From positions 1-34,133 of the forward strand of contig CANRJA010000019.1 in the NCBI GenBank assembly GCA_947630825.1: 34,133 bases of DNA, written 5' to 3'. The notes under the pieces are model-generated. The model made no database searches. It was given only the letters and a program-made list of their open reading frames with translations, and had not been told where the DNA came from. A program made the position numbers and the translations under genes. Shown here piece after piece: positions 299 through 34,133 of this stretch; positions within the stretch are counted from its first letter, which is position 1, and the number at the start of each line of letters is the position of its first letter. The DNA is from an uncultured Clostridia bacterium (GTDB lineage Bacteria > Bacillota > Clostridia > Oscillospirales > Ruminococcaceae).

Positions 299-309
299 AA
301 ACCTACAAC

Positions 310-407
310 CTTATCAAGAGCGGCGGAGGAAACAGGTCCTGTGAAGCCCGGCAACCTAATTTTTATTAAGGTGCTAATTCCTGCGGTAATAAATCCGAAA
401 GATGAGG
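310..407 (+). ncRNA. SAM-I riboswitch (S-box) aptamer
   Basis: The S-box core is clear: CTTATCAAGAG at 310-320, GGCGGAGG at 322-329, a GAAGCCCGGCAACC segment at 343-356, AAGGTGCTAATTCCTGC at 368-384, and GAAAGATGAG at 397-406 closing the P1 stem with CTTATC. SAM-I aptamers bind S-adenosylmethionine and turn off downstream genes. Here the controlled gene is metK, the SAM-producing enzyme, so this is direct feedback. The expression platform is the terminator at 426-453. Confidence 0.95.
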
Positions 408-425
408 AATTTAGATGATAAATTC

Positions 426-19213: not shown

Positions 19214-22200
19214 TTATATAATAACCGTTCCCGTACATACCGTTACAGCCTCGCCTGTCATATAAACGGTTCCGTCGTCTGTGTATCTGATAATCAAATC
19301 TCCGCCGCGCAGCTTAACAGTTATATCGGTATTTCTCTCGCAATAGCCGTTGAGAATAGCCGCAACAGCAGCCGCACATGCTCCTGTTCCGCAAGCCCAA
19401 GTCTCACCTGAACCTCTCTCCCACACCCTCATCTTGAGAGTTTTCTTGTCAATAACCTGAATAAACTCTGCGTTTACTCTCTCTGGGAAAAGCTCGTTTC
19501 TCTCAAACTTAGGTCCTACCTCCTCCAGTGGGAAAGTATCTACATTGTTTATAAATGTCACACAGTGAGGATTTCCCATTGAAACGCAGGTGATATTATA
19601 ATCCTCTCCGCCGATGTTTACCGTTCTGTCGATAATGCTGTCGCCGCTTAATGCAACTGGTATCTTCTTAGGATCAAGCTCTGCCTTGCCCATTGTAACC
19701 TTTGCACCAACTACTTCGCCGTAGTGTCTTTGAAGCTCAACGTGAATAATTCCGCTCAGAGTTTCAATATCCATCTCGTCCTTGTCGACAAGACCGTTAT
19801 CTCTCATAAACTTGGCAACACAGCGTATTCCGTTTCCGCACATCTTGCCCTCAGACCCGTCGAGATTGAACATTCTCATCTTAGCGTCAGCGACCTTTGA
19901 ACGTCTTATAAGTATAACTCCATCTCCGCCGATACCAAAATGTCTGTCTGACAGACGTATGCTCAGTCCCTCAGGATTGTCAAGACGCTGGTCAAAGCAG
20001 TTAAAATAAATATAATCGTTTCCACAGCCGTGCATCTTGGAAAATTCAAGCTTCTGTTTTTCTTTTCTCATATCATTTATGTCTACAAGCTCGGTAGATA
20101 GCTCTGAATACTTGCTCTTTAGGCTTGAAGCAATAGCATTAGCCGTGTCGATAGACGTCAAACAAGGAATGTTTCTGTCAACCGTTTTTCTTCTTATCTT
20201 AACGCTGTCACGCTCGGGATTTCTTCCCTTTGATGATGTAGATATAACATAGTGAATCTTTCCGCTTTCGATAAGCTTTAAGGTGTTGTTCTCTCCCTCG
20301 TGTATCTTATCAACAACTATAGACTTTATGCCGTTTTGCTCTAAGGTTTTTGCCGTTCCCCTTGTAGCATAGATCTCAAAGCCCAGATCCTGAAACGCCT
20401 TTGCAGTCTCTGCAATTTCCGGCTTATCCGAGTCTCTTACCGTTATAAACACACCGCCCTCTTTCTCAAGAGTATAACCTGCTGCTATAAGTCCCTTATA
20501 GAGCGATTCCTCAAGAGTATTTGCAACAGCCAGAACCTCTCCTGTAGACTTCATCTCAGGCCCTAAATGGTTGTCAACGTCTATCAGCTTTTCAAAGCTG
20601 AACACCGGTACTTTTACCGCAATATACGGAGAATTCGGATAAAGTCCTGTACCATAACCCATATCGCTGAGCTTTTCACCCAGCATAGCCCTTGTTGCAA
20701 GCTCAACCATAGGTACTCCCGTGACCTTTGATATATACGGAATAGTTCTTGACGAACGTGGGTTTACCTCGATAACATAAAGCTCGTCGTGATAAATTAG
20801 GTACTGAATATTTACAAGACCCTTTGTTTTTAGTGATACCGCCAGCTTTTTAGAACAGTCAACAATTCTGTCCATCAGCTTGTCGGAAACATTCCACGCA
20901 GGGTACACCGCAATAGAGTCTCCTGAGTGAACTCCAGCTCTCTCGATATGCTCCATTATTCCCGGAATGAGGATATTCTCACCGTCGCATATAGCGTCTA
21001 CCTCTATTTCAGGCCCCATTAGGTATTTATCAATAAGTATCGGGTTTTCAATCTCCTGTGCGAGAATTATCGCCATATACTCTTTTATATCGTCGTCGTT
21101 GAAGGCTATGATCATATTCTGTCCGCCCAGAACATAAGACGGTCTCATAAGAACAGGATAATGTATCCTATTAGCGACCTCTAAGGCTTCCTTTGTGGTC
21201 ATAACAGTAAATCCCTGAGGACGCTTTATCTTGTGCTCCTCTAAAAGCTCGTCAAATCTCTCTCTGTCTTCGGCGGCATCAATGCTGTCAGGAGGCGTTC
21301 CCAGAATATTAACGCCGTTTTCAGCCATATGCTTTGTCAGCTTGATAGCCGTCTGACCGCCAAACGCAACAACAACACCGTATGGTTTTTCTACATTGAT
21401 AATGTTCATAACATCTTCGTTAGTCAGCGGCTCAAAGTAAAGCCTGTCGGCAGTGTCAAAGTCAGTTGAAACGGTTTCAGGATTGTTGTTTACGATTACA
21501 ACGTCAAAGCCCTGCCTCTTTAGCGCCCAAACGCATTGAACAGACGCATAGTCAAACTCAATTCCCTGTCCGATTCTGATAGGTCCCGAACCGAAGACTA
21601 TAACCGTTTTTGTATCTCCCTCTTTTGAAGAATTTATAAACTGCCCTGCCTCGTCGTCCTCATCAAATGTAGAATAGAAATACGGAGTCTGTGCGGCAAA
21701 TTCAGCAGCGCAGGTGTCAACCATTTTAAATGACGCATACTTCTTTTGCTCTATAGTACAGCCTGATATTTCTTCTATTACCTTGTCAAGATACCCGAGC
21801 TTCTTTGCCTTTAAATAAAGCCCGTTTGTCAAAACACCTTTTCTGAGCTCCTTTTCAACATCTATCAGCTTCATCAGCTTATACAAGAACCACTCGTCTA
21901 TCTTGGTTATCTCGTGAATTTCGTCAACTGAAACTCCCCTTCTCATTGCCTCATAGACAACGAACAGTCTCTCATCATCACAGCTATGGAGCTTCTCTTT
22001 GATTTTCTCATCGCTCATTTCAATATGCTTTTCCGACAAAAGTGAGCTATGACCTATTTCAGCACCCCTTACAGCCTTCATAATAGCCTGCTCAAAGGTC
22101 GTGCCGATTGCCATTACTTCTCCTGTTGCCTTCATCTGAGTTCCCAAAGTTCTCTTAGCGTAAACAAACTTGTCAAAAGGCCATTTTGGGAGCTTAACTA

Positions 22201-23266
22201 CAACATAGTCTAGCGCAGGCTCAAAGCAAGCGTATGTCTTTCCTGTAACTGCGTTTTTAATTTCAGCCAAAGTGTATCCTATTGCGATTTTTGCCGCAAC
22301 CTTTGCAATTGGATATCCTGTTGCTTTTGATGCAAGAGCCGACGAACGTGATACTCTAGGGTTTACCTCGATAACTGCGTATTCAAAAGTATCGGGGTTT
22401 AAAGCAAACTGACAGTTACAGCCGCCTTCAACCTTTAGCGCGTCAATTATCTTCAATGCCGCCGAACGAAGCATTTGATACTCCTTATCTGCAAGAGTAA
22501 CAGTCGGTGCAATAACAATTGAATCACCGGTATGTACTCCAACAGGGTCGAAGTTCTCCATAGAGCAGACTGTTATTACATTTCCCTCTTTATCACGCAT
22601 AACCTCAAACTCTATCTCTTTCCAGCCGGCTATACATTTCTCAACCAAAACCTGAGTAATAGGCGAGAGATAAAGTCCGTTTCTTGCAATATCAATAAGC
22701 TCTTTTTCGTTGTTTACAATTCCACCGCCTGTTCCGCCAAGCGTGAATGCAGGACGTATTATTAGCGGATAACCTATACCCTCCTCATTTGCAAAGGCTA
22801 CGGCGTCCTCAACAGTGTTTACCACCTTAGACGGTATACACGGCTGACCTATAGACTCCATTGTGTCCTTGAACATCTGTCTGTCCTCAGCCTTGTCTAT
22901 AGTCTCAGGGTTTGCGCCCAATAGCTTTACGTTGTACTCGTCTAAAAAGCCTTCTTTTGCAAGCTCCATTGAAAGAGTAAGCCCCGTCTGTCCTCCCAAA
23001 GTTGAAAGAACACTGTCAGGTCTTTCCTTCTTGATTACCCTCTTTACCGTTTCAAGCGTCAGCGGTTCTATGTAAATCTTATCAGCCATCGCTTTGTCGG
23101 TCATTATAGTTGCAGGGTTTGAGTTTATAAGTATGACCTCAAGTCCCTCCTCCTTTAATGCACGGCATGCCTGAGTTCCCGCATAGTCAAACTCAGCCGC
23201 CTGACCGATAACTATAGGTCCCGAACCGATAACCAGAACTCTCTTTATATCTTTATTTAAAGGCAT
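19214..23266 (-). CDS. carB-dapF: Fused carbamoyl-phosphate synthase large subunit - diaminopimelate epimerase
   Basis: One continuous frame of 1350 codons. Residues 1 to about 1065 are a complete CarB: an ATP-grasp half starting VLVIGSGPIVIGQAAEFDYAG, an oligomerisation region, a second ATP-grasp half (VIVFGSGPIRIGQGIEFDYAS near 555), and the MGS-type allosteric domain to about 1050. Residues from about 1066 to 1350 are a complete DapF with FSKMHGCGNDY, catalytic cysteines C1143 (MCGNG) and C1292 (WACGTG), and the GNPHC motif. CarB makes carbamoyl phosphate for pyrimidines and arginine. DapF turns LL- into meso-diaminopimelate. The joint has only a short charged linker (MRKEKQK). An in-frame ATG at 20071 has no ribosome binding site ahead of it. 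carA precedes by 55 bases and dapL follows by 26. Confidence 0.95.
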   Translation of the reverse strand: MPLNKDIKRVLVIGSGPIVIGQAAEFDYAGTQACRALKEEGLEVILINSNPATIMTDKAMADKIYIEPLTLETVKRVIKKERPDSVLSTLGGQTGLTLSMELAKEGFLDEYNVKLLGANPETIDKAEDRQMFKDTMESIGQPCIPSKVVNTVEDAVAFANEEGIGYPLIIRPAFTLGGTGGGIVNNEKELIDIARNGLYLSPITQVLVEKCIAGWKEIEFEVMRDKEGNVITVCSMENFDPVGVHTGDSIVIAPTVTLADKEYQMLRSAALKIIDALKVEGGCNCQFALNPDTFEYAVIEVNPRVSRSSALASKATGYPIAKVAAKIAIGYTLAEIKNAVTGKTYACFEPALDYVVVKLPKWPFDKFVYAKRTLGTQMKATGEVMAIGTTFEQAIMKAVRGAEIGHSSLLSEKHIEMSDEKIKEKLHSCDDERLFVVYEAMRRGVSVDEIHEITKIDEWFLYKLMKLIDVEKELRKGVLTNGLYLKAKKLGYLDKVIEEISGCTIEQKKYASFKMVDTCAAEFAAQTPYFYSTFDEDDEAGQFINSSKEGDTKTVIVFGSGPIRIGQGIEFDYASVQCVWALKRQGFDVVIVNNNPETVSTDFDTADRLYFEPLTNEDVMNIINVEKPYGVVVAFGGQTAIKLTKHMAENGVNILGTPPDSIDAAEDRERFDELLEEHKIKRPQGFTVMTTKEALEVANRIHYPVLMRPSYVLGGQNMIIAFNDDDIKEYMAIILAQEIENPILIDKYLMGPEIEVDAICDGENILIPGIMEHIERAGVHSGDSIAVYPAWNVSDKLMDRIVDCSKKLAVSLKTKGLVNIQYLIYHDELYVIEVNPRSSRTIPYISKVTGVPMVELATRAMLGEKLSDMGYGTGLYPNSPYIAVKVPVFSFEKLIDVDNHLGPEMKSTGEVLAVANTLEESLYKGLIAAGYTLEKEGGVFITVRDSDKPEIAETAKAFQDLGFEIYATRGTAKTLEQNGIKSIVVDKIHEGENNTLKLIESGKIHYVISTSSKGRNPERDSVKIRRKTVDRNIPCLTSIDTANAIASSLKSKYSELSTELVDINDMRKEKQKLEFSKMHGCGNDYIYFNCFDQRLDNPEGLSIRLSDRHFGIGGDGVILIRRSKVADAKMRMFNLDGSEGKMCGNGIRCVAKFMRDNGLVDKDEMDIETLSGIIHVELQRHYGEVVGAKVTMGKAELDPKKIPVALSGDSIIDRTVNIGGEDYNITCVSMGNPHCVTFINNVDTFPLEEVGPKFERNELFPERVNAEFIQVIDKKTLKMRVWERGSGETWACGTGACAAAVAAILNGYCERNTDITVKLRGGDLIIRYTDDGTVYMTGEAVTVCTGTVII

Positions 23267-24561: not shown

Positions 24562-25131
24562 TTAATTTTCATAAATTTTTATAATTTCTATTGCAACCTC
24601 CCGTTTAGTGACCCTTTTATCCATCGCCTGCTTTTCCAAATACTTATGCGCTCGGTTTTCATCAAACCCCAAATACTGCATAAGCATAAACTTTGCTCTG
24701 TTTATAAGCTTCATTTCCTCAATTCGGTTGTGAAGCTTCTGATTCTCAAGCCTAAGTCCTGATAACCTGTTCCTTGACGCATTTATAAATCTTATCGCCT
24801 GTATAAATAAAGCCTTGTTGATAGGCTTTTGAATCGTCATTACTCCGATTGGCTCAACAGATTGGCTTACGCTCTCATAATGCTCGCTTTTTACTATCAT
24901 CAAACAGCTTGCGTTTGTCGATTCAACGCATATCTCAGCCAGATTATGACCGTATTCGTCACCCAGCGGAGCGTTTATTACAACTAAATCAAATTCTGCT
25001 TTAGATAGCAGTCTTTTAGCTTCAGATGAACTTTTAGCAATCGTTATCCTCGGCGTTGAAACACCTTTAAACATACCTGCAATCAAAGCTGTAGCCTTAT
25101 CTCCCGACGATACTATAAGAACACTCTCCAA
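24562..25131 (-). CDS. ANTAR-domain RNA-binding antiterminator with receiver-like domain
   Basis: 189 residues. The N-terminal 120 form a receiver-like fold (VLIVSSGD..., conserved lysine in TIQKPI), but the strand that should end in the phospho-aspartate reads LVVINAPLG, so that Asp is absent. A short coiled coil (LRLENQKLHNRIEEMK) leads into a C-terminal ANTAR domain with the signature AKFMLMQYLGFDENRAHKYLEKQAMDKR. ANTAR proteins bind paired RNA hairpins with six-base loops and prevent terminators from forming. The gene follows the glutamate synthase / GS-like operon. Likely targets are the leader terminators at 32336-32395 and 32739-32785. Start: TTG 25131 with GGGGG nine bases upstream. 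GTG 25122 is an alternative. Confidence 0.87.
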   Translation of the reverse strand: MESVLIVSSGDKATALIAGMFKGVSTPRITIAKSSSEAKRLLSKAEFDLVVINAPLGDEYGHNLAEICVESTNASCLMIVKSEHYESVSQSVEPIGVMTIQKPINKALFIQAIRFINASRNRLSGLRLENQKLHNRIEEMKLINRAKFMLMQYLGFDENRAHKYLEKQAMDKRVTKREVAIEIIKIYEN

Positions 25132-25178: not shown

Positions 25179-25300
25179 CTTGTGCCACCGGCTGTTCGTC
25201 AGTCTTGCCTCTTGCATCTAACTTCTTTTCTCTGGTAAAGGCAGAGTGCCACCGGCGGCTCGCCGATCTTGCCTCTTGCCTCTAACCTCTTGCCTCTAGA
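25179..25300. repeat. Seven-base tandem repeats with GC-rich hairpin units (copy B)
   Basis: Read on the minus strand there are two tandem units. Each is a block of AGAGGCA-type heptamers followed by a GC-rich segment: CGGCGAGCCGCCGGTGGCAC in the first, TGACGAACAGCCGGTGGCAC in the second. The first GC block contains a hairpin, CGGCG-GCT-CGCCG (25253-25265). It matches copy A at 8895-8990 in layout and wording. The repeat starts on the TAG stop codon of the GS-like gene (25296-25298) and fills the gap before the ANTAR gene. Confidence 0.78.
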
Positions 25301-26612
25301 GGGTTAGAAAATAAACTCTCTCAAAAGCATCCTTATCGTCAGTATTGCTGTAATTCTCAAACTGCTGTTTCTTTGATTTTAAGAAGAAGTCAACGATTTC
25401 CTTCGGCATATATTTGTATAGAAAACCACTTTTCTCAGCGAGCTTTACAGCCTCGTCCAAATTACTTGGAAGAGTAGCTATACCTTTTAAGTCGCTTTCA
25501 TCTGCACGGCTTAAATTGATATTTACTGAGTCGCAAAGAGTTTCCTTTCGTTCAACGCCGTCGAGACAAGCATATATAAGCAAAGCTATTGCAAGATAAG
25601 GGTTGCAGGCGCAGTCGGGCGAACGCAAAATAACCCTCGCAGAATTATTCTTATCCATAGGTACTAAAATAAGCTGAGCATGGTTTTGGTGCGACCAAGT
25701 AAGATATTTAGGTGCAAGATATTCTCCAAATCTCTTAAAGCTATTTACCGTAGGGTTTAAAAATACCGTCATATCGGCAACTCTGTTTAAAATACCTGCA
25801 ACAGCACTGCTGCCCGAGCCTTGACTTTCATCTGAAAAGTTCTCAAAAAGCTCTTTGCCGTTTTTGGACATAGATATGCCAAAGTGAAGACCGTTTCCGC
25901 TTTTATCAGCAATAGGCTTTGGCATAAATGAAGCGTACAGCCCGTTTTTATCTGCCATATTCTTAACAACTGACTTAAAAGTCTGCAAGTTATCGGCGGC
26001 GTTTAGAGGATTGCTGTATTTAAAATAAACTTCGTTCTGTCCGGGTCCGTCCTCATGTCTTGAGGATTCAGGAATTATATCCATCTGCTCAAGCGTGAGA
26101 CAAATCTCACGGCGCACATTTTCTCCCCTGTCTATAGGTGATGCGTCTAAGAACCCTGCGTAATCATTAGGTACCTTTGTTGGGTTTCCGTCATCGTCGC
26201 ACTTAAACAGGTAAAATTCACAAGATGTACCGAATTTGAATGTGTATCCGAGCCTTTCAGCTTTTTTTACAGCGTTTCTCAAAATGGCTCTGCCGTCACC
26301 ACCGAACTCACTTCCGTCGATATTTTTTATATCGCAGTAAAGTCTTGCGACTCCGCCGTGCTGGGGTCTCCACGGAAGCAATGCAAGAGTATCGGGGTCA
26401 GGAAATAAAAGCAGATCCGAGCGGTTAAAGTTCATAAAGCCCTCGATATGAGAAGCATCAAATCTTATTCCGTCGGCAAAAGCGCGTCTAAGCTCACAGC
26501 TGTTAATAGATATGTTTTTCTGATTTCCAAACATATCCGAAAAAACCAGCTTGACAAACCTGACGTCATTTTCCTCGATAAACTGCAAAACATCTCTTTC
26601 GGTATATTTCAT
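25296..26612 (-). CDS. Glutamine synthetase type I-like protein with lost catalytic residues
   Basis: 438 residues, aligned by eye along the whole length with GSI (GlnA). Conserved features: FDASHIEGF (Asp of the beta-grasp domain), HEDGPGQNEV with both glutamates (E187, E194), GNGLH with H243, NPTVNSFKR, and RSPDCACNPYL. Key residues of active GSI are changed, by motif alignment with the enteric enzyme. The first Glu of PEPEFF is Ser130. The second His of GMHxH is Gly245. Both arginines of ARNRS are replaced (HQNHA, 308-312). IRIP reads ILVP. The Glu of RxExR is Ile328. Two of the three second-metal ligands would thus be missing. It may be a sensor or pseudo-enzyme, or act on another substrate. 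It ends in copy B of the heptamer repeats and precedes the ANTAR gene. Confidence 0.85.
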   Translation of the reverse strand: MKYTERDVLQFIEENDVRFVKLVFSDMFGNQKNISINSCELRRAFADGIRFDASHIEGFMNFNRSDLLLFPDPDTLALLPWRPQHGGVARLYCDIKNIDGSEFGGDGRAILRNAVKKAERLGYTFKFGTSCEFYLFKCDDDGNPTKVPNDYAGFLDASPIDRGENVRREICLTLEQMDIIPESSRHEDGPGQNEVYFKYSNPLNAADNLQTFKSVVKNMADKNGLYASFMPKPIADKSGNGLHFGISMSKNGKELFENFSDESQGSGSSAVAGILNRVADMTVFLNPTVNSFKRFGEYLAPKYLTWSHQNHAQLILVPMDKNNSARVILRSPDCACNPYLAIALLIYACLDGVERKETLCDSVNINLSRADESDLKGIATLPSNLDEAVKLAEKSGFLYKYMPKEIVDFFLKSKKQQFENYSNTDDKDAFERVYFLTL

Positions 26613-26684: not shown

Positions 26685-27407
26685 TTAGTTGGGTGTGTAA
26701 AGACGTTTGTATGGATTTTTTGTGTCCGGAGTGAGAACATAAAATTTGTGATCCATAACCTTAGCCTTATCAACTCCGAATTTCTTGCAGTATTCGCTTA
26801 CATATCCGTCTATTTCTTTGAGGTCTGCCTTTTGGGCAATCTCCGCCTTGACCTGCTTAGGCAAATCAGCCGGATAATTGTCCGTTCTTAAAAATATTTT
26901 TCCACCGTGCATTCCTGTTCCGCAGAAATACCCTACAATCTGCTCGTCTTCATATCCAAGTCCAAGAACTATGATATATCCGCCTGCCTGATACTCGCCT
27001 AAAAAGCTTCCTGCCTTTCCGCCTATAACTAGAACCGGCGTCTTATCCATATATGACTTCATATGAATACCTGCTCTGTAGCCTGCGTCGTCTCTGACGA
27101 AAATCTTTCCGCCTCTCATTGCATAGCCTGTTGCATCGCCCGACGAGCCGTTTATAGTTATTGTGCCGTCGTTCATTGTATCGCCTGTTGCGTCCTGAGC
27201 GCTTCCGTTTACAGTGATGTTACTGCCATCAAGATAAGCGCCAAGAGCATTTCCCGGAGTTCCGTTTATCACAACGTCTCCGCTTGAGCGTCCAGCACAT
27301 ATATATCTCTGCCCAAGACATTTATCAATCGTTATGGTTTTATCCTTGCAAGCCTTCAGCTTTTTATTTAAAAGCTGAAAATGCATATCTCCTGCCGTAA
27401 TATTCAT
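26685..27407 (-). CDS. Glutamate synthase GXGXG (C-terminal) domain protein
   Basis: 240 residues equivalent to the C-terminal beta-helix domain of the glutamate synthase large subunit, here as a separate polypeptide. The repeated G-rich turns are visible: GSSGDATGYAMRGGKIFVRDD, GYRAGIHMK and GGKAGSFLGEYQAGG. In full-length GltB this domain is structural and supports the ammonia channel between the amidotransferase and FMN sites. It is part of the split five-gene GOGAT set. Start: the frame opens at GTG 27419, one base after AAGGGAG. ATG 27407, 13 bases after it, gives the family-like start MNITAGDMHF and is preferred with moderate certainty. Confidence 0.9.
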   Translation of the reverse strand: MNITAGDMHFQLLNKKLKACKDKTITIDKCLGQRYICAGRSSGDVVINGTPGNALGAYLDGSNITVNGSAQDATGDTMNDGTITINGSSGDATGYAMRGGKIFVRDDAGYRAGIHMKSYMDKTPVLVIGGKAGSFLGEYQAGGYIIVLGLGYEDEQIVGYFCGTGMHGGKIFLRTDNYPADLPKQVKAEIAQKADLKEIDGYVSEYCKKFGVDKAKVMDHKFYVLTPDTKNPYKRLYTPN

Positions 27408-27447
27408 AAGTATATTCACGCTCCCTTAAGAGCTTTCCTCCTTTCAA

Positions 27448-28674
27448 TTACTTTGCCAAAAACTCTTTTCGGCTTTTTCTTGAAAACGCCATAAGCTGTG
27501 GCTTTTCCTTTATCAAATCAAAATCAATAGAGCTAAGCGGTGTGCGCTTTTTTATAAGACTTGTGTAAATTCCTGCCCTCTTTACATCACCTATCATTAT
27601 GTATCCTTTAAGTCGGTTTGACTTGTAAAACAGCTTCTTATAATTACAATCATCAGCGCATTCATAACTCTCTCCCTCATATGTTCCGGCAGTGATAATG
27701 TGAAGCCCGAAGAAGCCTATAGCGTTCATAGGAATAGCATTATCGTATGAAGCATCTCCGCCTGCCATATTTATGCCTGCCGTCTCACCCTGCATATATG
27801 CGTTAGGAAGTAAAGCCATAACCTTATCTGTATTGCTGGAAACATCATGCGACTCTGTACAGTCGCCTGCCGCATAAATATCCTTGATTGAAGTTCTGCA
27901 CTTATTGTCTGTAACGATTCCCTTATTCACCTTGCCACCTATATCTTTTATTAGAGATACGCATGGTCTAACTCCTACAGCAAGCACAAGAATATCAAAA
28001 TCAATATCAGTACCGCTTACAAGGGTTGCCTTATTTTTCTCAAACTTCTTTACGCTGTCGCTGAGATAGAATTTAACACCCTGTGATTCAATATGCTTGC
28101 GAACGACTTCCGAGCCGTTCGAATCAAGAATTGACGGCAGAATGCGGTCTGCTAAATCAACGACAGTTATGCTTTCCACCTTATCGTTTATGCCTTCAGC
28201 GCATTTAAGACCTATCAGTCCTGCTCCGACAATAAGCACCTTGCTCTGCGGTGTTATTGCCTTTTCAAGCTTGTGTGCGTCGTCCAGCGTCATAAAGCTG
28301 AATTTTTTCTTGACCTTGTCAAGTCCGTCCATAGGCGGAACAAAAGGCACAGAGCCTATTGCGACCAAAAGTTTTTCATATGGCACTTCCTTGCCGTCTG
28401 AAAGCAAAACCTTCTTTTCCTTTTTGTCAATAGAAACAACCGTCTTGCCCAGCATTTTCTTTACCTTGTTGTCTTTATAAAAGCTGTCGGGACGATATTT
28501 CATTCTCTGCTCATCGGTCTTACCGTATAAAAGATAAGAAATAAGCGGTCTTGAATATGTATGGTGAGGCTCAGACGCAATTAGTGTTATTTCTCCGTCC
28601 TTGTCAATACTTCTTATTCCCTCAACACAGCCGATACCACCTGCCGAGTTTCCGATAATTACATATTTGCTCAT
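27448..28674 (-). CDS. FAD/NAD(P)-dependent oxidoreductase of the glutamate synthase cluster
   Basis: 408-residue pyridine-nucleotide-disulphide oxidoreductase-type flavoprotein. FAD loop GNSAGGIGCVEGI sits at residues 8-20 (a GxSxGG variant), the NAD(P) loop is VLIVGAGLIGLKCAEG near 147-162, and the second FAD motif is IYAAGDCTE near 270. No redox-active CxxxxC pair is visible, as in NADH:rubredoxin or nitrite-reductase-type reductases. It probably passes electrons between NAD(P)H and the 4Fe-4S protein encoded 11 bases upstream, feeding the FMN synthase subunit. This role is inferred from context. Confidence 0.87.
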   Translation of the reverse strand: MSKYVIIGNSAGGIGCVEGIRSIDKDGEITLIASEPHHTYSRPLISYLLYGKTDEQRMKYRPDSFYKDNKVKKMLGKTVVSIDKKEKKVLLSDGKEVPYEKLLVAIGSVPFVPPMDGLDKVKKKFSFMTLDDAHKLEKAITPQSKVLIVGAGLIGLKCAEGINDKVESITVVDLADRILPSILDSNGSEVVRKHIESQGVKFYLSDSVKKFEKNKATLVSGTDIDFDILVLAVGVRPCVSLIKDIGGKVNKGIVTDNKCRTSIKDIYAAGDCTESHDVSSNTDKVMALLPNAYMQGETAGINMAGGDASYDNAIPMNAIGFFGLHIITAGTYEGESYECADDCNYKKLFYKSNRLKGYIMIGDVKRAGIYTSLIKKRTPLSSIDFDLIKEKPQLMAFSRKSRKEFLAK

Positions 28675-28685
28675 TTTACCGCCTC

Positions 28686-29117
28686 CTATTCTTTCTCTTC
28701 ATAAATTATCGCTCTGTTCGGACAGCCTTCAACACACGCAGGCTTTCCGTTAGAATTCTTCAAACAAAGCTCACACTTCTGAACAACTCCGTCATCAGAC
28801 GGCATTATCGCACCGTATGGGCAGGACAGAACACAGGTATAACAACCCACGCACTTATCTTTGTCGATCTCAATAACTCCGTCAACTACCGACAATGCTC
28901 CGGTTATACAGCCCTTAACGCACAGCGGTTCTTCGCAGTGGCGGCAGGAGACCGCAAATGATATTCCGTCCTTTTCCTCTATTTGTATTCTGGGATTGAT
29001 TTTAACATTCTTTAGTGCTTTTGCCATATCGTCTTCCCCTGAATTTGCAAAAGCACAATTATATTCACACAAATGGCACCCTAAACACCATTTTTCATCT
29101 ACGTAAATTCGCTTCAT
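28686..29117 (-). CDS. 4Fe-4S dicluster-type electron-transfer protein
   Basis: 143 residues of the HycB/CooF ferredoxin type. There are four cysteine groups: CLGCHLCEYNC near the N-terminus, CRHCEEPLCVKGC, CVGCYTCVLSCPYG, and CELCLKNSNGKPACVEGCP. Together they could hold up to four [4Fe-4S] clusters. No signal peptide, so it is cytosolic. It sits between the synthase subunit and the flavoprotein, and is the likely electron wire of the split glutamate synthase. Its ribosome binding site is GGAGGG. Confidence 0.9.
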   Translation of the reverse strand: MKRIYVDEKWCLGCHLCEYNCAFANSGEDDMAKALKNVKINPRIQIEEKDGISFAVSCRHCEEPLCVKGCITGALSVVDGVIEIDKDKCVGCYTCVLSCPYGAIMPSDDGVVQKCELCLKNSNGKPACVEGCPNRAIIYEEKE

Positions 29118-29140
29118 AAATCTACCCTCCGCTACATTAT

Positions 29141-29182
29141 AATTGATAATTGATAATTGACAATGGATAATGGATAATGGAT
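29141..29182. repeat. Seven-base tandem repeat AATTGAT/AATGGAT
   Basis: Six consecutive heptamers: AATTGAT twice, AATTGAC, then AATGGAT three times. A short inverted copy (ATCCATTG, about 29191-29198) follows. It differs in wording from the AGAGGCA heptamers elsewhere but has the same unit length. It lies in the 413-base gap upstream of the 4Fe-4S gene. Confidence 0.85.
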
Positions 29183-29231
29183 AATTTAATATCCATTGTA
29201 CTCTATTTCATTTCCATTCGTACAGCATAGT

Positions 29232-29530
29232 TTACCAAAATCAGCAAAACTATCGCCGCACAGTATTTCTCTTTTTACAGCCCGCCGTTTCTCAAACTAT
29301 AACCTTGTTCAAGCTTACCAAAATCAGCAGAACTAGCACCAGCACGTTTACAACATTTCTATTTGTACAGCCCGCCGTTACTCAAATTATGACCTTGTTC
29401 AAGCTTACCAAAATCAGCAGAACTAACGCCAGCACAGTTTATAACATTTCTCTTTGTACAGCCCGCCGTTACTCAAACTATAACCTTGTTCAAGCTTACC
29501 AAAGGCAGCAGAACCAACGGCGGCTCGCCG
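29232..29530. repeat. About 90-bp tandem repeat, three and a half copies
   Basis: Units begin TTACCAAAATCAGCA at 29232, 29315, 29405 and 29496 (spacings 83, 90 and 91). Each full unit includes TACAGCCCGCCGTTACTCAAAC and CCTTGTTCAAGC. The last unit is partial and runs into a hairpin AACGGC-GGCTC-GCCGTT (29516-29532) that touches the stop codon of the synthase gene. Read leftward, the TTCTGCTG..TTTGGTAAGC part of each unit resembles the segment following the hairpins in repeat copies A and B. The 90-base period keeps a rightward frame open, but this is a repeat artefact. Confidence 0.85.
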
Positions 29531-31036
29531 TTATTCGCCGGCGTGTTTTATACCGAGAATTTGTAACTCCTTTTCGGTTAAGCCAATACCTCTAAGCATA
29601 AGCCTGTTACCACGAAGTGACTCGATAGAGTTGATACCCATACCGCCCATTATCTCTTTGATTTCGTGGTTCCAAGCGGTAAGAAGATTAACAAGTCTCT
29701 TGTAACCTATATCAGGGTTAAGACGCCTTACCAAATCCTCTCGCTGGGTCGCAATACCCCAGTTACATCTTCCCTGCTGACAACTTCTGCATAGATGACA
29801 GCCAAGAGCTAAAAGTGCAGAAGTTCCAATATAAACTGCGTCTGCTCCAAGCGCAATAGCCTTTACAATATCAGCCGATGAACGAATTGAACCTCCGACA
29901 ACAATGGAAACCTTGTTTCTTATTCCCTCTTCACGAAGTCTTTGGTCAACGCTCGCCAGCGCAAGCTCAATAGGAATACCCACATTGTCTCTTATTCGGG
30001 TCGGTGCAGCACCTGTTCCTCCTCTGTAGCCGTCGATTGCGATAATATCAGCTCCGCCCCTCGCAATACCAGAAGCTATAGCCGCAACATTATGTACCGC
30101 CGCTATCTTTACAATGACAGGCTTTTTGTAATCAGACGCCTCTTTAAGCGAATATACAAGCTGTCTCAAATCCTCAATTGAGTAAATATCGTGGTGAGGC
30201 GCAGGAGAAATAGCGTCCGAACCCTTTGGTATCATTCTGGTCTTTGATATATCATCGCCGACCTTTATTCCAGGAAGGTGTCCGCCGATGCCCGGTTTTG
30301 CGCCCTGTCCCATTTTGATTTCAATAGCTGCTCCTGCGTTCAAATAATCCTTGTGAACGCCGAAACGTCCCGACGCAACCTGAACAATGGTATGCGGACC
30401 ATACTTGTAGAAATCCTTATGAAGTCCGCCCTCGCCTGTGTTATAGTAGGTTCCAAGCTCCTCTGCGGCTCTTGCAAGGCTCTCGTGAGCGTTGTAGCTT
30501 ATAGAACCGTAAGACATTGCCGAAAACATTATAGGAATATCAAGCTTCAGCTGCGGTGTTAAATTGTTCTTTATCTCGCCCTTTGAGTTAAATTCTACCT
30601 TCTCAGGCTTTGCACCTAAGAAAACTCTTGTCTCCATAGGCTCACGAAGCGGATCTATTGACGGGTTTGTTACCTGCGACGCATTTATAAGCATCTTATC
30701 CCAGTAAATAGGATAGTTCTTAGGATTACCCATTGAAGAGAGCAGAACTCCGCCTGTTCCTGCCTGCCTGTAAATCTCAGATATGTTCTCGCTCCTCCAG
30801 TTTGCGTTTTCTCTGAAAGTATGATTAGTCTTGACGATTTTCAGAGCCCTTGTCGGGCAAAGCGCTACGCATCTGTGACAGCATACGCACTTTGCATTAT
30901 CCGATACCATACAGTCCAAATCCTCGTCATATTTATGAACTTCGTTTGCACATTGACGTTCGCATACACGACAGCCTATGCATTTATCTTTATCCCTCAC
31001 AACTTCAAATTCGGGATATAAAAAATCTATCGCCAT
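29531..31036 (-). CDS. Glutamate synthase central FMN/ferredoxin subunit (archaeal-type)
   Basis: 501 residues. The N-terminus carries two ferredoxin-type cysteine groups (CIGCRVCERQC and CVCCHRCVALCPTRA). The rest is the FMN-binding TIM barrel of glutamate synthase: FSAMSYGSISYNAHESLARAA, GEGGLHKDF, IKMGQGAKPG, IDGYRGGTGAAPTR, and the 3Fe-4S loop region CHLCRSCQQGRCNWG. It converts 2-oxoglutarate plus channelled ammonia to glutamate using reduced ferredoxin-like donors. The domain is free-standing, so the amidotransferase and GXGXG parts come from separate genes. Start: GGAGG lies inside the first codons of the longer frame (ATG 31048) and is spaced correctly for ATG 31036. Confidence 0.93.
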   Translation of the reverse strand: MAIDFLYPEFEVVRDKDKCIGCRVCERQCANEVHKYDEDLDCMVSDNAKCVCCHRCVALCPTRALKIVKTNHTFRENANWRSENISEIYRQAGTGGVLLSSMGNPKNYPIYWDKMLINASQVTNPSIDPLREPMETRVFLGAKPEKVEFNSKGEIKNNLTPQLKLDIPIMFSAMSYGSISYNAHESLARAAEELGTYYNTGEGGLHKDFYKYGPHTIVQVASGRFGVHKDYLNAGAAIEIKMGQGAKPGIGGHLPGIKVGDDISKTRMIPKGSDAISPAPHHDIYSIEDLRQLVYSLKEASDYKKPVIVKIAAVHNVAAIASGIARGGADIIAIDGYRGGTGAAPTRIRDNVGIPIELALASVDQRLREEGIRNKVSIVVGGSIRSSADIVKAIALGADAVYIGTSALLALGCHLCRSCQQGRCNWGIATQREDLVRRLNPDIGYKRLVNLLTAWNHEIKEIMGGMGINSIESLRGNRLMLRGIGLTEKELQILGIKHAGE

Positions 31037-31050
31037 AATAACCTCCATTT

Positions 31051-31170
31051 AGAAGCCAGAAACCAGATGCAAGAAGTAAGAACTTCTTGTATCTATTAGA
31101 CTTCTAATATCTAGTTTTAAATTTGTAATATTTCTCATTAAGACTCTTGATTCTATGTTTCTTGTATCTA
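31051..31170. repeat. Degenerate heptamer repeats with hairpins (copy C)
   Basis: AGAAGCC/AGAAACC/AGATGCA/AGAAGTA heptamers run from 31051, then fold back: AGATGCAAGAAGT (31065-31077) pairs with ACTTCTTGTATCT (31082-31094), and TATTAGA-CT-TCTAATA follows at 31094-31109. The far end, read leftward, begins TAGATACAAGAAACATAG on the TAG stop codon of the amidotransferase gene. No promoter was evident. Confidence 0.65.
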
Positions 31171-32268
31171 AAGATTTGCCATCGCCTTTGGCTGTAAAGT
31201 AGCTATAACAGGTTCTCCGCCTTTAGGCGACCATATCTTATCTAGCTCAGGCTCGATAATTCTTATTGCGCACTCCTCGCTTGCCATATAAACCATATCG
31301 TCCTTTTCGCCGACTACCATTGAACGCAACTTTAACCTGTCGTTAAGAGCCATGAGCCCACCCTCAAAGCCGAGAATTATTGAAAACGGTCCTGTAATCA
31401 AAAGTCCCGGAAAAGCGTTTCTGAGATAATTGAGTTTATCTCTTTCCTTCTTAGGCATACTCTCTATCGTAGACCAAAAAGGCGCGGCAATTACATTTGC
31501 GGCGTCCTCTAATGACAGCTTTTGCTTTCTTAAAAGATAATCTATTATATATGTAATGACCTCTGTATCTGTCTGTAGCGTACACTTGTAACCGTACATC
31601 TCAATATCGCGTCTGTTTGCATCGTAGCTTGAAATCTCTCCATTATGTACTATAGAATAATCTAGCATTGCAAAGGGGTGAGCTCCTCCCCACCAGCCTG
31701 GAGTGTTTGTAGGGTATCTTCCGTGAGCGGTCCAAGCGTATCCCTCATACTCGTCTAATCTGAAATAGTCTCCGACATCCTCTGGAAAACCTACCGCTTT
31801 GAATACTCCCATATTCTTTCCGCATGAGAAAACATAAGCTCCCTCTATATTAGAGTTTATATTTATTACGCTTCTTGTAACAAACTCCTTTTCATCAAGC
31901 TGACTGTCAGTTAGCTTTGTCGGCAGCGGATTTACAAAATATCTCCAAATAAGCGGCTCAGCCGTTATGGTCTGATTTGGCTTAACTGGGATCTTAGACA
32001 AGTTGATAATGTCAAAATGCCTGTCTAAAAATCTTTCGCATTCCTCTCTTGATTTGTTTGAATCATAAAATACGTGAAAGGCGTAAAGGTCTTTATACTG
32101 CGGATATATACCGTATCCTGCAAAGCCTCCGCCCAAACCGTTTGAACGGTCGTGCATAGTCGCTATTGACTGGACGATTTTAGAGCCGTTGATTTTCTTC
32201 CCGCTTGTCGAAATCATTCCCGAAATCGCACAGCCCGACGGAATTCTTATCTCTCCCTCTTTAAGCAT
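31168..32268 (-). CDS. Glutamate synthase amidotransferase (class II glutaminase) subunit
   Basis: 366 residues, the N-terminal-nucleophile glutaminase part of glutamate synthase as a separate polypeptide. C13 in PSGCAISGMIS is the likely nucleophile, so the first 12 residues would be a propeptide removed to free it. Other class II features are HGRYPTNTPGWWGGAHPFAMLDYSIVHNGEISSY, then QTDTEV with the conserved Asp, and the late GPFSIILG strand. It releases ammonia from glutamine for the FMN subunit. It is the first gene of the nitrogen operon, with GGAGG ahead of the ATG. It is preceded by a long leader containing a terminator. Confidence 0.92.
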   Translation of the reverse strand: MLKEGEIRIPSGCAISGMISTSGKKINGSKIVQSIATMHDRSNGLGGGFAGYGIYPQYKDLYAFHVFYDSNKSREECERFLDRHFDIINLSKIPVKPNQTITAEPLIWRYFVNPLPTKLTDSQLDEKEFVTRSVININSNIEGAYVFSCGKNMGVFKAVGFPEDVGDYFRLDEYEGYAWTAHGRYPTNTPGWWGGAHPFAMLDYSIVHNGEISSYDANRRDIEMYGYKCTLQTDTEVITYIIDYLLRKQKLSLEDAANVIAAPFWSTIESMPKKERDKLNYLRNAFPGLLITGPFSIILGFEGGLMALNDRLKLRSMVVGEKDDMVYMASEECAIRIIEPELDKIWSPKGGEPVIATLQPKAMANL

Positions 32269-32335: not shown

Positions 32336-32395
32336 AAAAAAAGTATTCACAAAACAGCCGCAGTAAAACCTGCCGCTTAGTGAACACCATTGTCC
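32336..32395 (-). promoter_or_regulatory. Leader attenuator of the glutamate synthase operon
   Basis: Read leftward, GTGTTCAC pairs with GTGAATAC (32343-32387 overall, with an inner GCAG / CTGC stem), followed by seven T (32336-32342): an intrinsic terminator inside the leader, about 65 bases before the first gene. Just ahead, a small hairpin GGAC-AATGGT-GTTC (32382-32395) shares the GTTC of the terminator arm, so the two exclude each other. Its six-base loop has A at 1 and G at 4, the known ANTAR target pattern. Confidence 0.65.
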
Positions 32396-32424
32396 CGAAT
32401 ATTAACCTTTTTACTCTATTCCAC

Positions 32425-32453
32425 ATTCTATCACATCGCTATTTCCTTGTCAA
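32425..32453 (-). promoter_or_regulatory. Promoter of the glutamate synthase operon
   Basis: Minus strand TTGACA (32448-32453), a 17-base spacer and TAGAAT (32425-32430). Transcription would start near 32418, leaving a 150-base leader that includes the attenuator. Confidence 0.78.
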
Positions 32454-32532
32454 GCATTTTTGCAGAATTTTTTTATTATAATTCATTTTTTCTCAAATTA
32501 AAAGCAAAAACACGCTTATTTTTTTAATAATT

Positions 32533-32560
32533 TTGCAAGTTTGTTTAATTTGACTTGCAA
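32533..32560. promoter_or_regulatory. Operator-like inverted repeat between the divergent nitrogen operons
   Basis: TTGCAAGT - 12 bases - ACTTGCAA, perfect 8-base arms. Its right half overlaps a possible weak rightward promoter (TTGACT at 32550-32555, TATATT at 32574-32579). It could bind a dimeric regulator. It does not match the GlnR or TnrA site wording I know. Confidence 0.5.
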
Positions 32561-32699
32561 CTTATTCGTATACTATATTAATATAATACGATTTGAATTT
32601 ATTCTGTATGATTTGTTATTAAAAATTACTAAAACTTTATCTTTCAGGGCTTTTCCAATTGAATAAATATACAAATTTCAAGAAAAACTTAAAAAACAC

Positions 32700-32728
32700 T
32701 TGACAAATAAAAATAAAAAGAATATACT
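32700..32728 (+). promoter_or_regulatory. Promoter of glnN
   Basis: TTGACA (32700-32705), a 17-base spacer and TATACT (32723-32728). The start of transcription, about 32735-32737, is almost at the base of the attenuator hairpin. Confidence 0.82.
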
Positions 32729-32738
32729 AACAGTGTAA

Positions 32739-32785
32739 ACAGCAAAGGCGCTGTGGACAATTAATGTCCGCAGTGCCTTTTTATT
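32739..32785 (+). promoter_or_regulatory. Leader attenuator of glnN
   Basis: A 16-bp stem (32744-32759 with 32765-32780, two G-T wobbles, loop ATTAA) followed by TTATTTATAA forms a terminator-like hairpin in the leader. An alternative hairpin ACAGC-AAAGGC-GCTGT (32739-32754) uses most of the 5' arm, so both cannot form. Its hexaloop has A at 1 and G at 4, fitting ANTAR targets, and it resembles the AATGGT loop on the divergent side. Confidence 0.62.
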
Positions 32786-32817
32786 TATAATTTATAATTG
32801 AAATGGAGGAAATTCAA

Positions 32818-34133
32818 ATGAGCAACATTCCTGAACTTTTCGGCGAAGATGTTTTTAACCTTAAGGTTATGAAGCAAAGACTGCCGAAGGAAACATTCAA
32901 GGCTCTTAAGAAAACCATTGACAACGCTGAACCGTTAGACTTGTCCGTCGCAAATGTTGTGGCAAACGCAATGAAAGACTGGGCGGTAGAGAAAGGTGCA
33001 ACCCACTTTACTCACTGGTTCCAGCCGATGACAGGCTTAACTGCTGAAAAGCACGACAGCTTTATCTCACCTACTCCTGACGGCGGAGTGATTATGGAGT
33101 TAAGCGGAAAAGAGCTTATCAAAGGCGAACCAGACGCTTCATCATTCCCATCGGGCGGATTGAGAGCAACATTTGAGGCAAGAGGCTACACAGCGTGGGA
33201 TCCTACCTCATACGCATTTATCAAAGATGGTTCTCTTTGTATTCCTACAGCGTTCTGTTCATACACAGGAGAAGCGCTTGACAAGAAAACTCCGTTACTT
33301 CGTTCAATGGACGCCGTATCAAAATCAGCTCTTAAAATTCTTGATTTATTCGGCGTAAAGGCAAACAGAGTTTCATCTACTGTCGGACCTGAGCAGGAAT
33401 ATTTCCTTATTGAAAGAGAAGATTACGCTAAGAGAAAAGACCTCATTTACACAGGCAGAACACTATTCGGCGCTCCTGCTCCTAAAGGTCAGGAGCTAGA
33501 GGATCACTACTTCGGTTCTGTAAAGATGAGAGTTTCGGCATATATGAAGGATTTGGACGAGGAGCTTTGGAAGCTCGGAATCACAGCTAAGACAAAGCAC
33601 AACGAGGTTGCTCCTGCACAGCACGAGCTTGCTCCTATCTTCTCAACAACTAATATAGCGTCAGACCACAACCAGCTTACTATGGAGGCTATGAGAAAGA
33701 CTGCTAAAAAGCACGGCTTTAAATGTCTTCTCCACGAAAAGCCTTTCGCAGGCGTTAACGGCAGCGGCAAGCACAACAACTGGTCGCTTTCAACAGATAC
33801 AGGCATTAACCTTTTAGACCCAGGTAAGACACCTGCTGAAAACGCACAATTCCTGCTCTTTTTAACAGCGGTTATCAAGGCTGTAAACAAATATCAGGAT
33901 TTGCTCAGACTTTCAGTTGCAACAGCAGGAAACGACCACAGACTTGGCGCTAATGAAGCACCTCCTGCTATAATTTCGATTTTCTTAGGCGACGAGCTGA
34001 CAGCTATCCTGGACGCTATCTGCAACGATGTAGATTACGACAACGACGGCGTAGCCGATTTACAGATAGGCGTTGACGTTCTGCCGTCATTCCCTAAGGA
34101 TAACACCGACAGAAACAGAACCTCGCCTTTTGC
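32818..34133 (+). CDS. glnN: Glutamine synthetase type III, partial at window end
   Basis: ATP-dependent synthesis of glutamine from glutamate and ammonia. The frame starts at ATG 32818 after GGAGG and is still open at the last base, giving 438 codons of an expected 700 or so. The N-terminus ([20 protein letters not shown]) and the [20 protein letters not shown] block are specific to GSIII. The active-site motifs are intact: [35 protein letters not shown] and [14 protein letters not shown]. It is therefore probably the working glutamine synthetase of this locus, in contrast to the altered GSI-like protein at 25296-26612. It is controlled by its own promoter and leader attenuator and is divergent from the glutamate synthase operon. 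Confidence 0.96.

Follow-up and report, generated by a model that had tools for sequence, protein, structure and literature searches.

Two nitrogen-assimilation operons diverge from one intergenic region

The window, the 34,133-nt stretch of DNA analyzed here, comes from a 1.82 Mb, 94%-complete assembly. Near its right end, two nitrogen-assimilation operons diverge from a 534-nt intergenic region between 32268 and 32803, and profile matches identify the following genes:

24562..25131, minus strand: ANTAR protein, 189 aa (PF03861, 1.7e-17; PF00072, 2.4e-5, under its curated cut-off)
25296..26612, minus strand: GlnA-type glutamine synthetase, immediately before the ANTAR gene (PF00120, 7.4e-89)
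26685-27419, minus strand: GXGXG domain part of glutamate synthase (profile match)
27448-28674, minus strand: pyridine nucleotide oxidoreductase, glutamate synthase part (profile match)
28686-29117, minus strand: ferredoxin-like part of glutamate synthase (profile match)
29531..31048, minus strand: glutamate synthase central/FMN domain protein (PF01645, 5.1e-142)
31168..32268, minus strand: class-II glutamine amidotransferase domain of the split glutamate synthase, first gene behind the glutamate synthase (glt) leader (PF00310, 7.5e-13)
32803..34131, plus strand: glnN, type III glutamine synthetase, incomplete at the contig end (PF12437, 2e-82)

A first-pass annotation had described the gene at 24562-25131 as encoding an ANTAR protein and as the last gene of its operon; PF03861 bears out the ANTAR identity, and the place as last gene is not established, with carA beginning 157 nt further on along the same strand. 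Glutamate synthase is split into five genes (26685-32268, minus strand), with the amidotransferase and GXGXG proteins separate, an arrangement found in archaea. At 19214-23266 on the minus strand, one open frame encodes a CarB-DapF fusion (carbamoyl-phosphate synthase large chain and diaminopimelate epimerase) and is followed by an LL-diaminopimelate aminotransferase gene; full-length copies of the fusion occur in 8 loci of the genus and in a further 18 at 75-78% identity. A SAM riboswitch lies at 308-408 (plus strand, 82.3 bits). No ammonium transporter was matched in the 94%-complete assembly, which is no evidence of absence because the contig ends inside glnN and the transporter gene (amt) comes after glnN in L009 and L010.

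Each leader contains a predicted attenuator

The features of the two leaders, with start sites deduced from the promoter matches, are as follows:

32700..32728, plus strand: glnN promoter, TTGACA-17-TATACT (11/12 sigma-70 matches; predicted +1 near 32735)
32739..32754, plus strand: glnN hexaloop hairpin, ACAGC[AAAGGC]GCTGT (loop 32744-32749)
32744..32780, plus strand: predicted intrinsic terminator of the glnN leader (-26.7 kcal/mol; T-rich DNA after it)
32425..32453, minus strand: glutamate synthase operon promoter, TTGACA-17-TAGAAT (11/12 sigma-70 matches; predicted +1 near 32418)
32396..32408, minus strand: 13-nt block AGGTTAATATTCG, between the predicted +1 and the glt hexaloop
32382..32395, minus strand: glt hexaloop hairpin, GGAC[AATGGT]GTTC (loop 32391-32386)
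32342..32388, minus strand: predicted intrinsic terminator of the glt leader (-22.4 kcal/mol; T tract after it)

The first-pass annotation had proposed that each side carries a consensus promoter and a leader terminator, and that a hexaloop hairpin with A at loop position 1 and G at position 4 (A1/G4) overlaps the 5' arm of each terminator. Both proposals hold up: the promoters match at 11/12 positions, the terminators fold at -26.7 and -22.4 kcal/mol, and in the predicted folds hairpin and terminator share an arm and are mutually exclusive. The 5' arm of the glnN terminator consists of the hexaloop and the 3' arm of the hairpin. This hairpin is predicted to be firm alone, with five pairs and a hexaloop at -6.5 kcal/mol; a 22-nt glnN leader RNA is predicted to fold into it at that energy and a 48-nt RNA into the terminator at -27.3 kcal/mol. 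On its own the glt hairpin has little stability (-3.2 kcal/mol); in its predicted fold A1 pairs with U6, which leaves a tetraloop.

The whole window holds 108 terminator-like sites (41 on the plus strand, 67 on the minus strand). An A1/G4 hexaloop hairpin overlaps eight of them: the two leader terminators, which are much the strongest, and six weak ones (-8.0 to -11.1 kcal/mol). When the 534-nt intergenic region was shuffled 1000 times with dinucleotide composition preserved, any A1/G4 overlap appeared in one shuffle and two overlaps in none. Internal attenuators elsewhere in the operon were considered and rejected, the window scan having yielded no other strong match. Rfam gave no match at gathering score for the window intergenic region, nor for leaders from 7 relative loci; a permissive threshold gave two sub-threshold, chance-like matches. 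In the middle of the intergenic region (32533-32577), a dyad TTGCAAG...CTTGCAA with adjoining TATACTATA is kept in all nine genomes of the genus alignment described below and is a possible regulator site or distal promoter.

We also searched whole genomes with a promoter-plus-loop pattern, which needs a TTGAC start and a gap of at most 30 nt, so that other targets could escape it. The pattern occurs at 21 places in the source genome vs 11 for the pattern read backwards; only the glnN leader among the 21 has a terminator, and the glt leader turned up in its flank. No further leader appeared among the 30 places read of 63 pattern matches in two genus relatives.

The leader layout recurs in front of nitrogen genes of relatives

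A check of the hexaloop hairpins in relatives, called for by the first-pass annotation, was run on an alignment of nine intergenic regions (the window and eight genus relatives), and both hairpins are kept in all nine genomes. Both hexamers of the glnN promoter and A1 and G4 of the glnN loop are retained in 8/8 aligned relatives; the loop differs at position 6 alone, where either C or T is found, and a G-U pair occurs in the stem of one relative. The glt hairpin is identical in 8/8 relatives, and GGACAATGGTGTTCACT of the glt leader shows no change across the nine genomes. The block AGGTTAATATTCG is unchanged in eight of nine, with one change in L003; its spacing to the -10 box is 11-12 nt greater in three of the nine, and no structure was found for it in the genus leaders.

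The same leader precedes glnN, glt, glnA, ammonium transporter, CTP synthase and asparagine synthase genes in relatives. It heads glnN in Intestinibacter (L014) and in Clostridium cibarium (L029), glnA in L013, L014, L029, L030 and L034, and gltB in many Ruminococcus loci, where the leaders missed by a 4-pair rule have the same loop type on a stem of at least 3 pairs. Three further placements are:

L076:14985, minus strand: same leader type before CTP synthase
L067:12121, plus strand: same leader type before asparagine synthase
L009:553 and L010:326, minus strand: third leader, GTAC[AAAGAG]GTAC plus terminator, between glnN and an ammonium transporter gene (Pfam on L009 only)

In the source assembly, the third (amt) leader site of the genus relatives would fall beyond the contig end. 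Two of three tested ammonium transporters behind such leaders have a PII domain, and the third is truncated.

Some leaders are doubled at the terminator level: a first attenuator is followed by another, both having a hexaloop of their own, in L047, L051, L059, L060, L064 and L070 and in genomes G039, G051 and G055. In the six loci, the second hairpin, CATACAC[AACGGG or AAAGGG]GTGTATG, sits on its own terminator (minus strand, about 850-2400). Separately, Ruminococcus gltB leaders (L037, L041, L051, L052, L054, L055 and L057; ~2637-2641) have a second CAATGGCG stretch past the terminator and near the start codon, which might be a translation-level site.

Loop identity is fixed as stems and terminators change

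In the window and 76 loci, counted without L001 and L078, we found 247 hexaloop-terminator overlaps with any loop; A1/G4 accounts for 77 and the next class for 20. In 100 non-redundant promoter-bearing leaders for which only A1 and G4 were demanded, loop position 2 is A in all 100, position 5 is a purine in all 100 (G in 80, A in 20) and the closing pair is C-G in 99. Among A1/G4 overlaps without a promoter, A2 occurs in 15/22.

The terminator helix of the CAGC class covaries strongly (30 leaders in alignment A1, which takes 30 of 31 class-A stretches and leaves out L056), with 95.4% of cells paired and 60 changed on both sides, a result reached in 0/500 shuffles; loop changes are therefore matched in the terminator 3' arm. 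The hexaloop stem shows no covariation in these 30 leaders because it hardly varies within the class. Between genes and genera, stem and terminator sequences differ and the loop identity (AA-G with a C-G closing pair) is fixed.

The ANTAR protein has a degenerate receiver and keeps some EutV RNA-contact residues

The receiver domain of the ANTAR protein is degenerate, with Asn53 in place of the phospho-acceptor Asp; in 77 proteins of the group this position is Asn in 58, Tyr in 13, Asp in 5 and Ala in 1. With no Asp at this position in the window protein, a kinase is probably not the source of the signal. AmiR is activated without phosphorylation, and the phospho-acceptor Asp is not needed for the AmiR type. 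In 60 of 76 loci, a GlnA gene precedes the ANTAR gene by at most 450 nt, with loci cut short counted as misses, and the NitR gene also sits beside glnA in Clostridium saccharobutylicum. More speculatively, the ANTAR protein may have the neighboring glutamine synthetase as its partner, and this enzyme may itself be the signal.

Among solved ANTAR proteins, the sequence matches 1s8n, AmiR (1qo0), EutV (6wsh) and the NasR-type 4akk. Lys149, Glu160, Met172, Arg175, Tyr164, Arg168, Arg142 and Arg177 contact RNA in EutV, according to the portion of the structure paper used here (PMC8934654). The first four correspond to K147, E158, M170 and R173 in the window protein, kept in 77, 77, 77 and 76 of 77 proteins; Tyr164 and Arg168 are replaced by His and Glu, Arg142 mostly by Ile/Met and Arg177 mostly by Thr/Lys.

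The motif tracks the presence of an ANTAR gene

The ANTAR gene at the locus is the only ANTAR match in the 94%-complete assembly. Among 61 genomes, the source genome and 60 relatives, 45 have an ANTAR gene and 57 have glnN; the glnN set outside the genus comprises 42 genomes, one per genus, of which 30 carry an ANTAR gene (ANTAR+) and 12 do not (ANTAR-). Under strict rules, with about 900 nt before glnN scanned, the overlap turned up in 19/30 ANTAR+ vs 1/12 ANTAR- genomes, the single ANTAR- match lying ~860 nt upstream of glnN with no promoter visible. A relaxed scan, with T-tract and stem rules loosened and the distance limited to 320 nt in the same way for both groups, gave 25/30 vs 0/12 (one-sided Fisher 5.6e-7), the relaxation having followed a look at the data in which 17 of 27 matchless ANTAR+ regions and no ANTAR- region were read by eye and which showed that those two rules had cost some clear cases. 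Part of this contrast may reflect more leader terminators in general, because loops other than A1/G4 also overlap terminators upstream of glnN more often in ANTAR+ genomes (18/30 vs 3/12, p=0.04). Five of the 30 ANTAR+ genomes have no motif upstream of glnN; three of these (G022, G037 and G043) have it elsewhere, and in G035 and G056 it was seen neither upstream of glnN nor elsewhere.

A sequence model of the motif, R1, matched 28/45 ANTAR+ vs 0/16 ANTAR- genomes at E<=1e-4, a cut chosen once results were known, and 13/30 vs 0/16 outside the genus; at a loose cut of 0.05 it matched 36/45 vs 7/16. R1 matches all 15 genus genomes, every one of which has the ANTAR gene, at 1.6e-8 or better, as expected of a model whose source sequences included the window and seven from the genus. 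Because R1 recognizes the CAGC class only, the design itself should be at least as frequent among ANTAR+ genomes as the R1 matches.

R1 was also run on a wider draw from the order, 197 genomes of which at least 26 had been in the first set, and matched 33/114 ANTAR+ vs 3/83 ANTAR- genomes (Fisher 1.4e-6). The three ANTAR- matches are without hexaloop or promoter and resemble gene-end terminators, and a search of these three genomes with the window ANTAR protein as query, run without a positive control, gave no match. Five ANTAR+ matches of the wider draw were read: four have the hairpin behind a promoter, and a second G482 site has a broken closing pair.

Proposed mechanism

We propose, at a probability of about 0.82, that each operon is headed by a predicted attenuator and that the sole detected ANTAR protein grips the single A1/G4 hairpin at or near the 5' end of the leader and would thereby block the overlapping terminator. 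Comparison supports the first-pass proposal, in which the ANTAR protein of the locus governs both operons by attenuation: no other ANTAR gene was found in the 94%-complete assembly, motif and ANTAR gene occur together across genera, and the leader recurs in relatives. RNA polymerase would start at the consensus promoter, and the 5' hairpin would emerge before the terminator. Unaided, the terminator should win over the hairpin, and most transcripts would stop at roughly 50-85 nt when active ANTAR protein is missing. An ANTAR dimer bound to the hairpin would let polymerase pass into glnN and into the glutamate synthase-glnA-ANTAR operon, and read-through of the latter would raise the operon's own regulator. 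By analogy to NitR, the active ANTAR state may go with nitrogen limitation.

Leaders have one hexaloop as a rule

A point against this proposal is that a single hexaloop might not suffice for antitermination, because EutV, in the part of the eutP study drawn on here, needs an upstream hairpin (P1) for induction (PMC3369931). We gathered 121 leaders from the window and loci up to L197, de-duplicated at 70 nt, with a loop CAAnGnnG, a stem of at least 3 pairs and a promoter of at least 9/12 matches. L001, L078, L079-L097 and L198-L227 are left out of these and of the 100 leaders above, and L228 onward is also out of the 100; both sets were de-duplicated for identical stretches only, and their leaders are not phylogenetically independent.

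Loop base A1 lies a median of 15 nt past the -10 box, which therefore leaves no room for P1; it falls within 9-18 nt in 104/121, or about +4 to +13 if +1 is taken as 7 nt after the -10 box. Between predicted start and hairpin, the 121 leaders contain no A1/G4 hexaloop of at least 3 pairs (same-length control windows, 1), no G4 hexaloop of at least 4 pairs (controls, 1) and no hexaloop with any loop and at least 4 pairs (controls, 7). The glt leader is among the longer ones, with its hexaloop near a predicted +28, and is still without a second hexaloop hairpin. A P1 placed downstream, up to 25 nt past the terminator, was judged unlikely: A1/G4 hairpins occur there in 8/121 leaders and in 8/121 reversed controls. 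The eutP leaders of 30 loci, a thin positive control, gave one clear P2, in L198. Read by eye, this leader has P2 on the terminator and an upstream hairpin GATAC[GATGAT]GTGTC, whose loop begins with G; the A1/G4 rule missed it, and the any-loop test would accept it.

The remark in the first-pass annotation that each leader has one convincing hexaloop thus extends to the whole set, in which no leader has a second one upstream. That annotation had counted the missing second hairpin as a weakness of the ANTAR reading; the comparison shows instead that a single hairpin is the conserved design.

The leaders could nevertheless be classical dual-hexaloop targets whose P1 is hidden, for example in a longer RNA from an upstream promoter or as a degenerate loop. 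Such a reading would agree with the targets in the literature, which are dual in the portions consulted (PMC3369931, PMC8164766), and the genus leaders offer some candidates: a conserved element at 32550-32579 has a 10/12 promoter match, a distal A1/G4 hairpin with loop ATTGAA stands ~122-124 nt before the glnN hairpin in 4/9 genus leaders (five A-T or G-T pairs in L005, L006 and L009, three in L010), and a fifth, L007, has another distal A1/G4 hairpin. The P1 loop of L198 also shows that departure from A1 is possible. We consider a hidden P1 quite unlikely, given that an A1/G4 hexaloop of at least 3 pairs is missing from the 160 nt upstream of the glnN hairpin in four of the nine genus leaders, including that of the window, that none of the 121 leaders has one between predicted start and hairpin, and that downstream A1/G4 hairpins occur at the control rate.

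Other explanations and wider meaning

The attenuators could also answer to another factor, such as a glutamine- or ammonium-sensing RNA, another protein or an antisense RNA, with the hexaloop incidental. The fixed loop identity amid changing stem and terminator sequences, the way the motif follows the ANTAR gene and the absence of gathering-score Rfam matches from the intergenic region and from leaders at 7 relative loci make this very improbable, even though an antisense RNA has a part in NitR-related control in Clostridium, as far as the portions used of two papers report (PMC4676874, PMC6316151). That chance alone put ordinary terminators beside promoters in AT-rich intergenic DNA is scarcely credible: terminator-like sites are common in the window (108), but two overlaps arose in 0/1000 shuffles and the layout is conserved over many genera.

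Beyond attenuation by the ANTAR protein at this locus, we lean toward a broader reading, held with less confidence, in which these leaders form a separate and widespread class of ANTAR switch. In this class a single hexaloop at ~+10 would suffice for antitermination and P1 would be dispensable; it would serve the nitrogen regulon of the order, comprising glnN, glt, glnA, amt and the CTP and asparagine synthase genes, and the receiver may sense glutamine synthetase. ANTAR regulons in gut and rumen Clostridia would then include the main ammonium-assimilation genes. Two-hairpin models would not count these leaders, and such regulons are therefore probably under-annotated in gut and rumen Clostridia. 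The 121 natural leaders, without space for a second hairpin between predicted start and terminator, provide short test RNAs, those of the window being about 48-85 nt from predicted start to terminator end.

Comparison with known systems

The ANTAR targets described in the parts of the literature drawn on here are dual hairpins (PMC3369931, PMC8164766), and an actinobacterial ANTAR survey demanded dual stem-loops in manual curation (PMC8164766). EutV/EutW of Enterococcus faecalis are like the present system in the receiver-ANTAR protein, the A1/G4 hexaloops, the hairpin on the terminator 5' arm and the antitermination model (PMC3369931, PMC8934654). Their targets consist of P1 and P2, with loops beginning at +29 and +53 in E. 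faecalis eutP, where induction is lost upon P1 deletion (PMC3369931), whereas each leader here has one hexaloop, near a predicted +10 in glnN. EutV is activated by phosphorylation at Asp54 (PMC3369931, PMC8934654), where the window protein has Asn53. In the EutV-RNA structure, the dimer touches one hexaloop at a time; its authors, in the sections used here, regard a single hexaloop as the minimal binding motif, state that the dimer must contact each hexaloop to stop termination and leave the role of single hexaloops for further work (PMC8934654).

AmiR of Pseudomonas (PDB 1qo0) resembles the window protein in sequence (4.1e-8) and in a His at the position of EutV Tyr164; unlike it, AmiR controls an amidase operon, and its target is reported as dual-hairpin (PMC3369931). 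Closest in function is NitR of Clostridium saccharobutylicum, also an ANTAR regulator of GS/GOGAT genes, which the portion of a review used here credits with antitermination and with inducing these genes under nitrogen limitation (PMC6316151); a Clostridium thermocellum paper, in the part drawn on, makes a similar suggestion on ANTAR control of GS/GOGAT (PMC4676874). The dual-hexaloop ANTAR regulons predicted on glutamate and glutamine synthase genes concern the same gene functions (Ramesh 2012, PMC3369931), and the motif of that study, as given in the part used, is defined by two hairpins, so a single-hexaloop class would not meet its definition. We found no report of single-hexaloop ANTAR attenuators in the open literature searched, and an earlier one elsewhere is possible. 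ANTAR control of GS/GOGAT through NitR is already known; what appears to be new here is the 5'-terminal single-hexaloop architecture.
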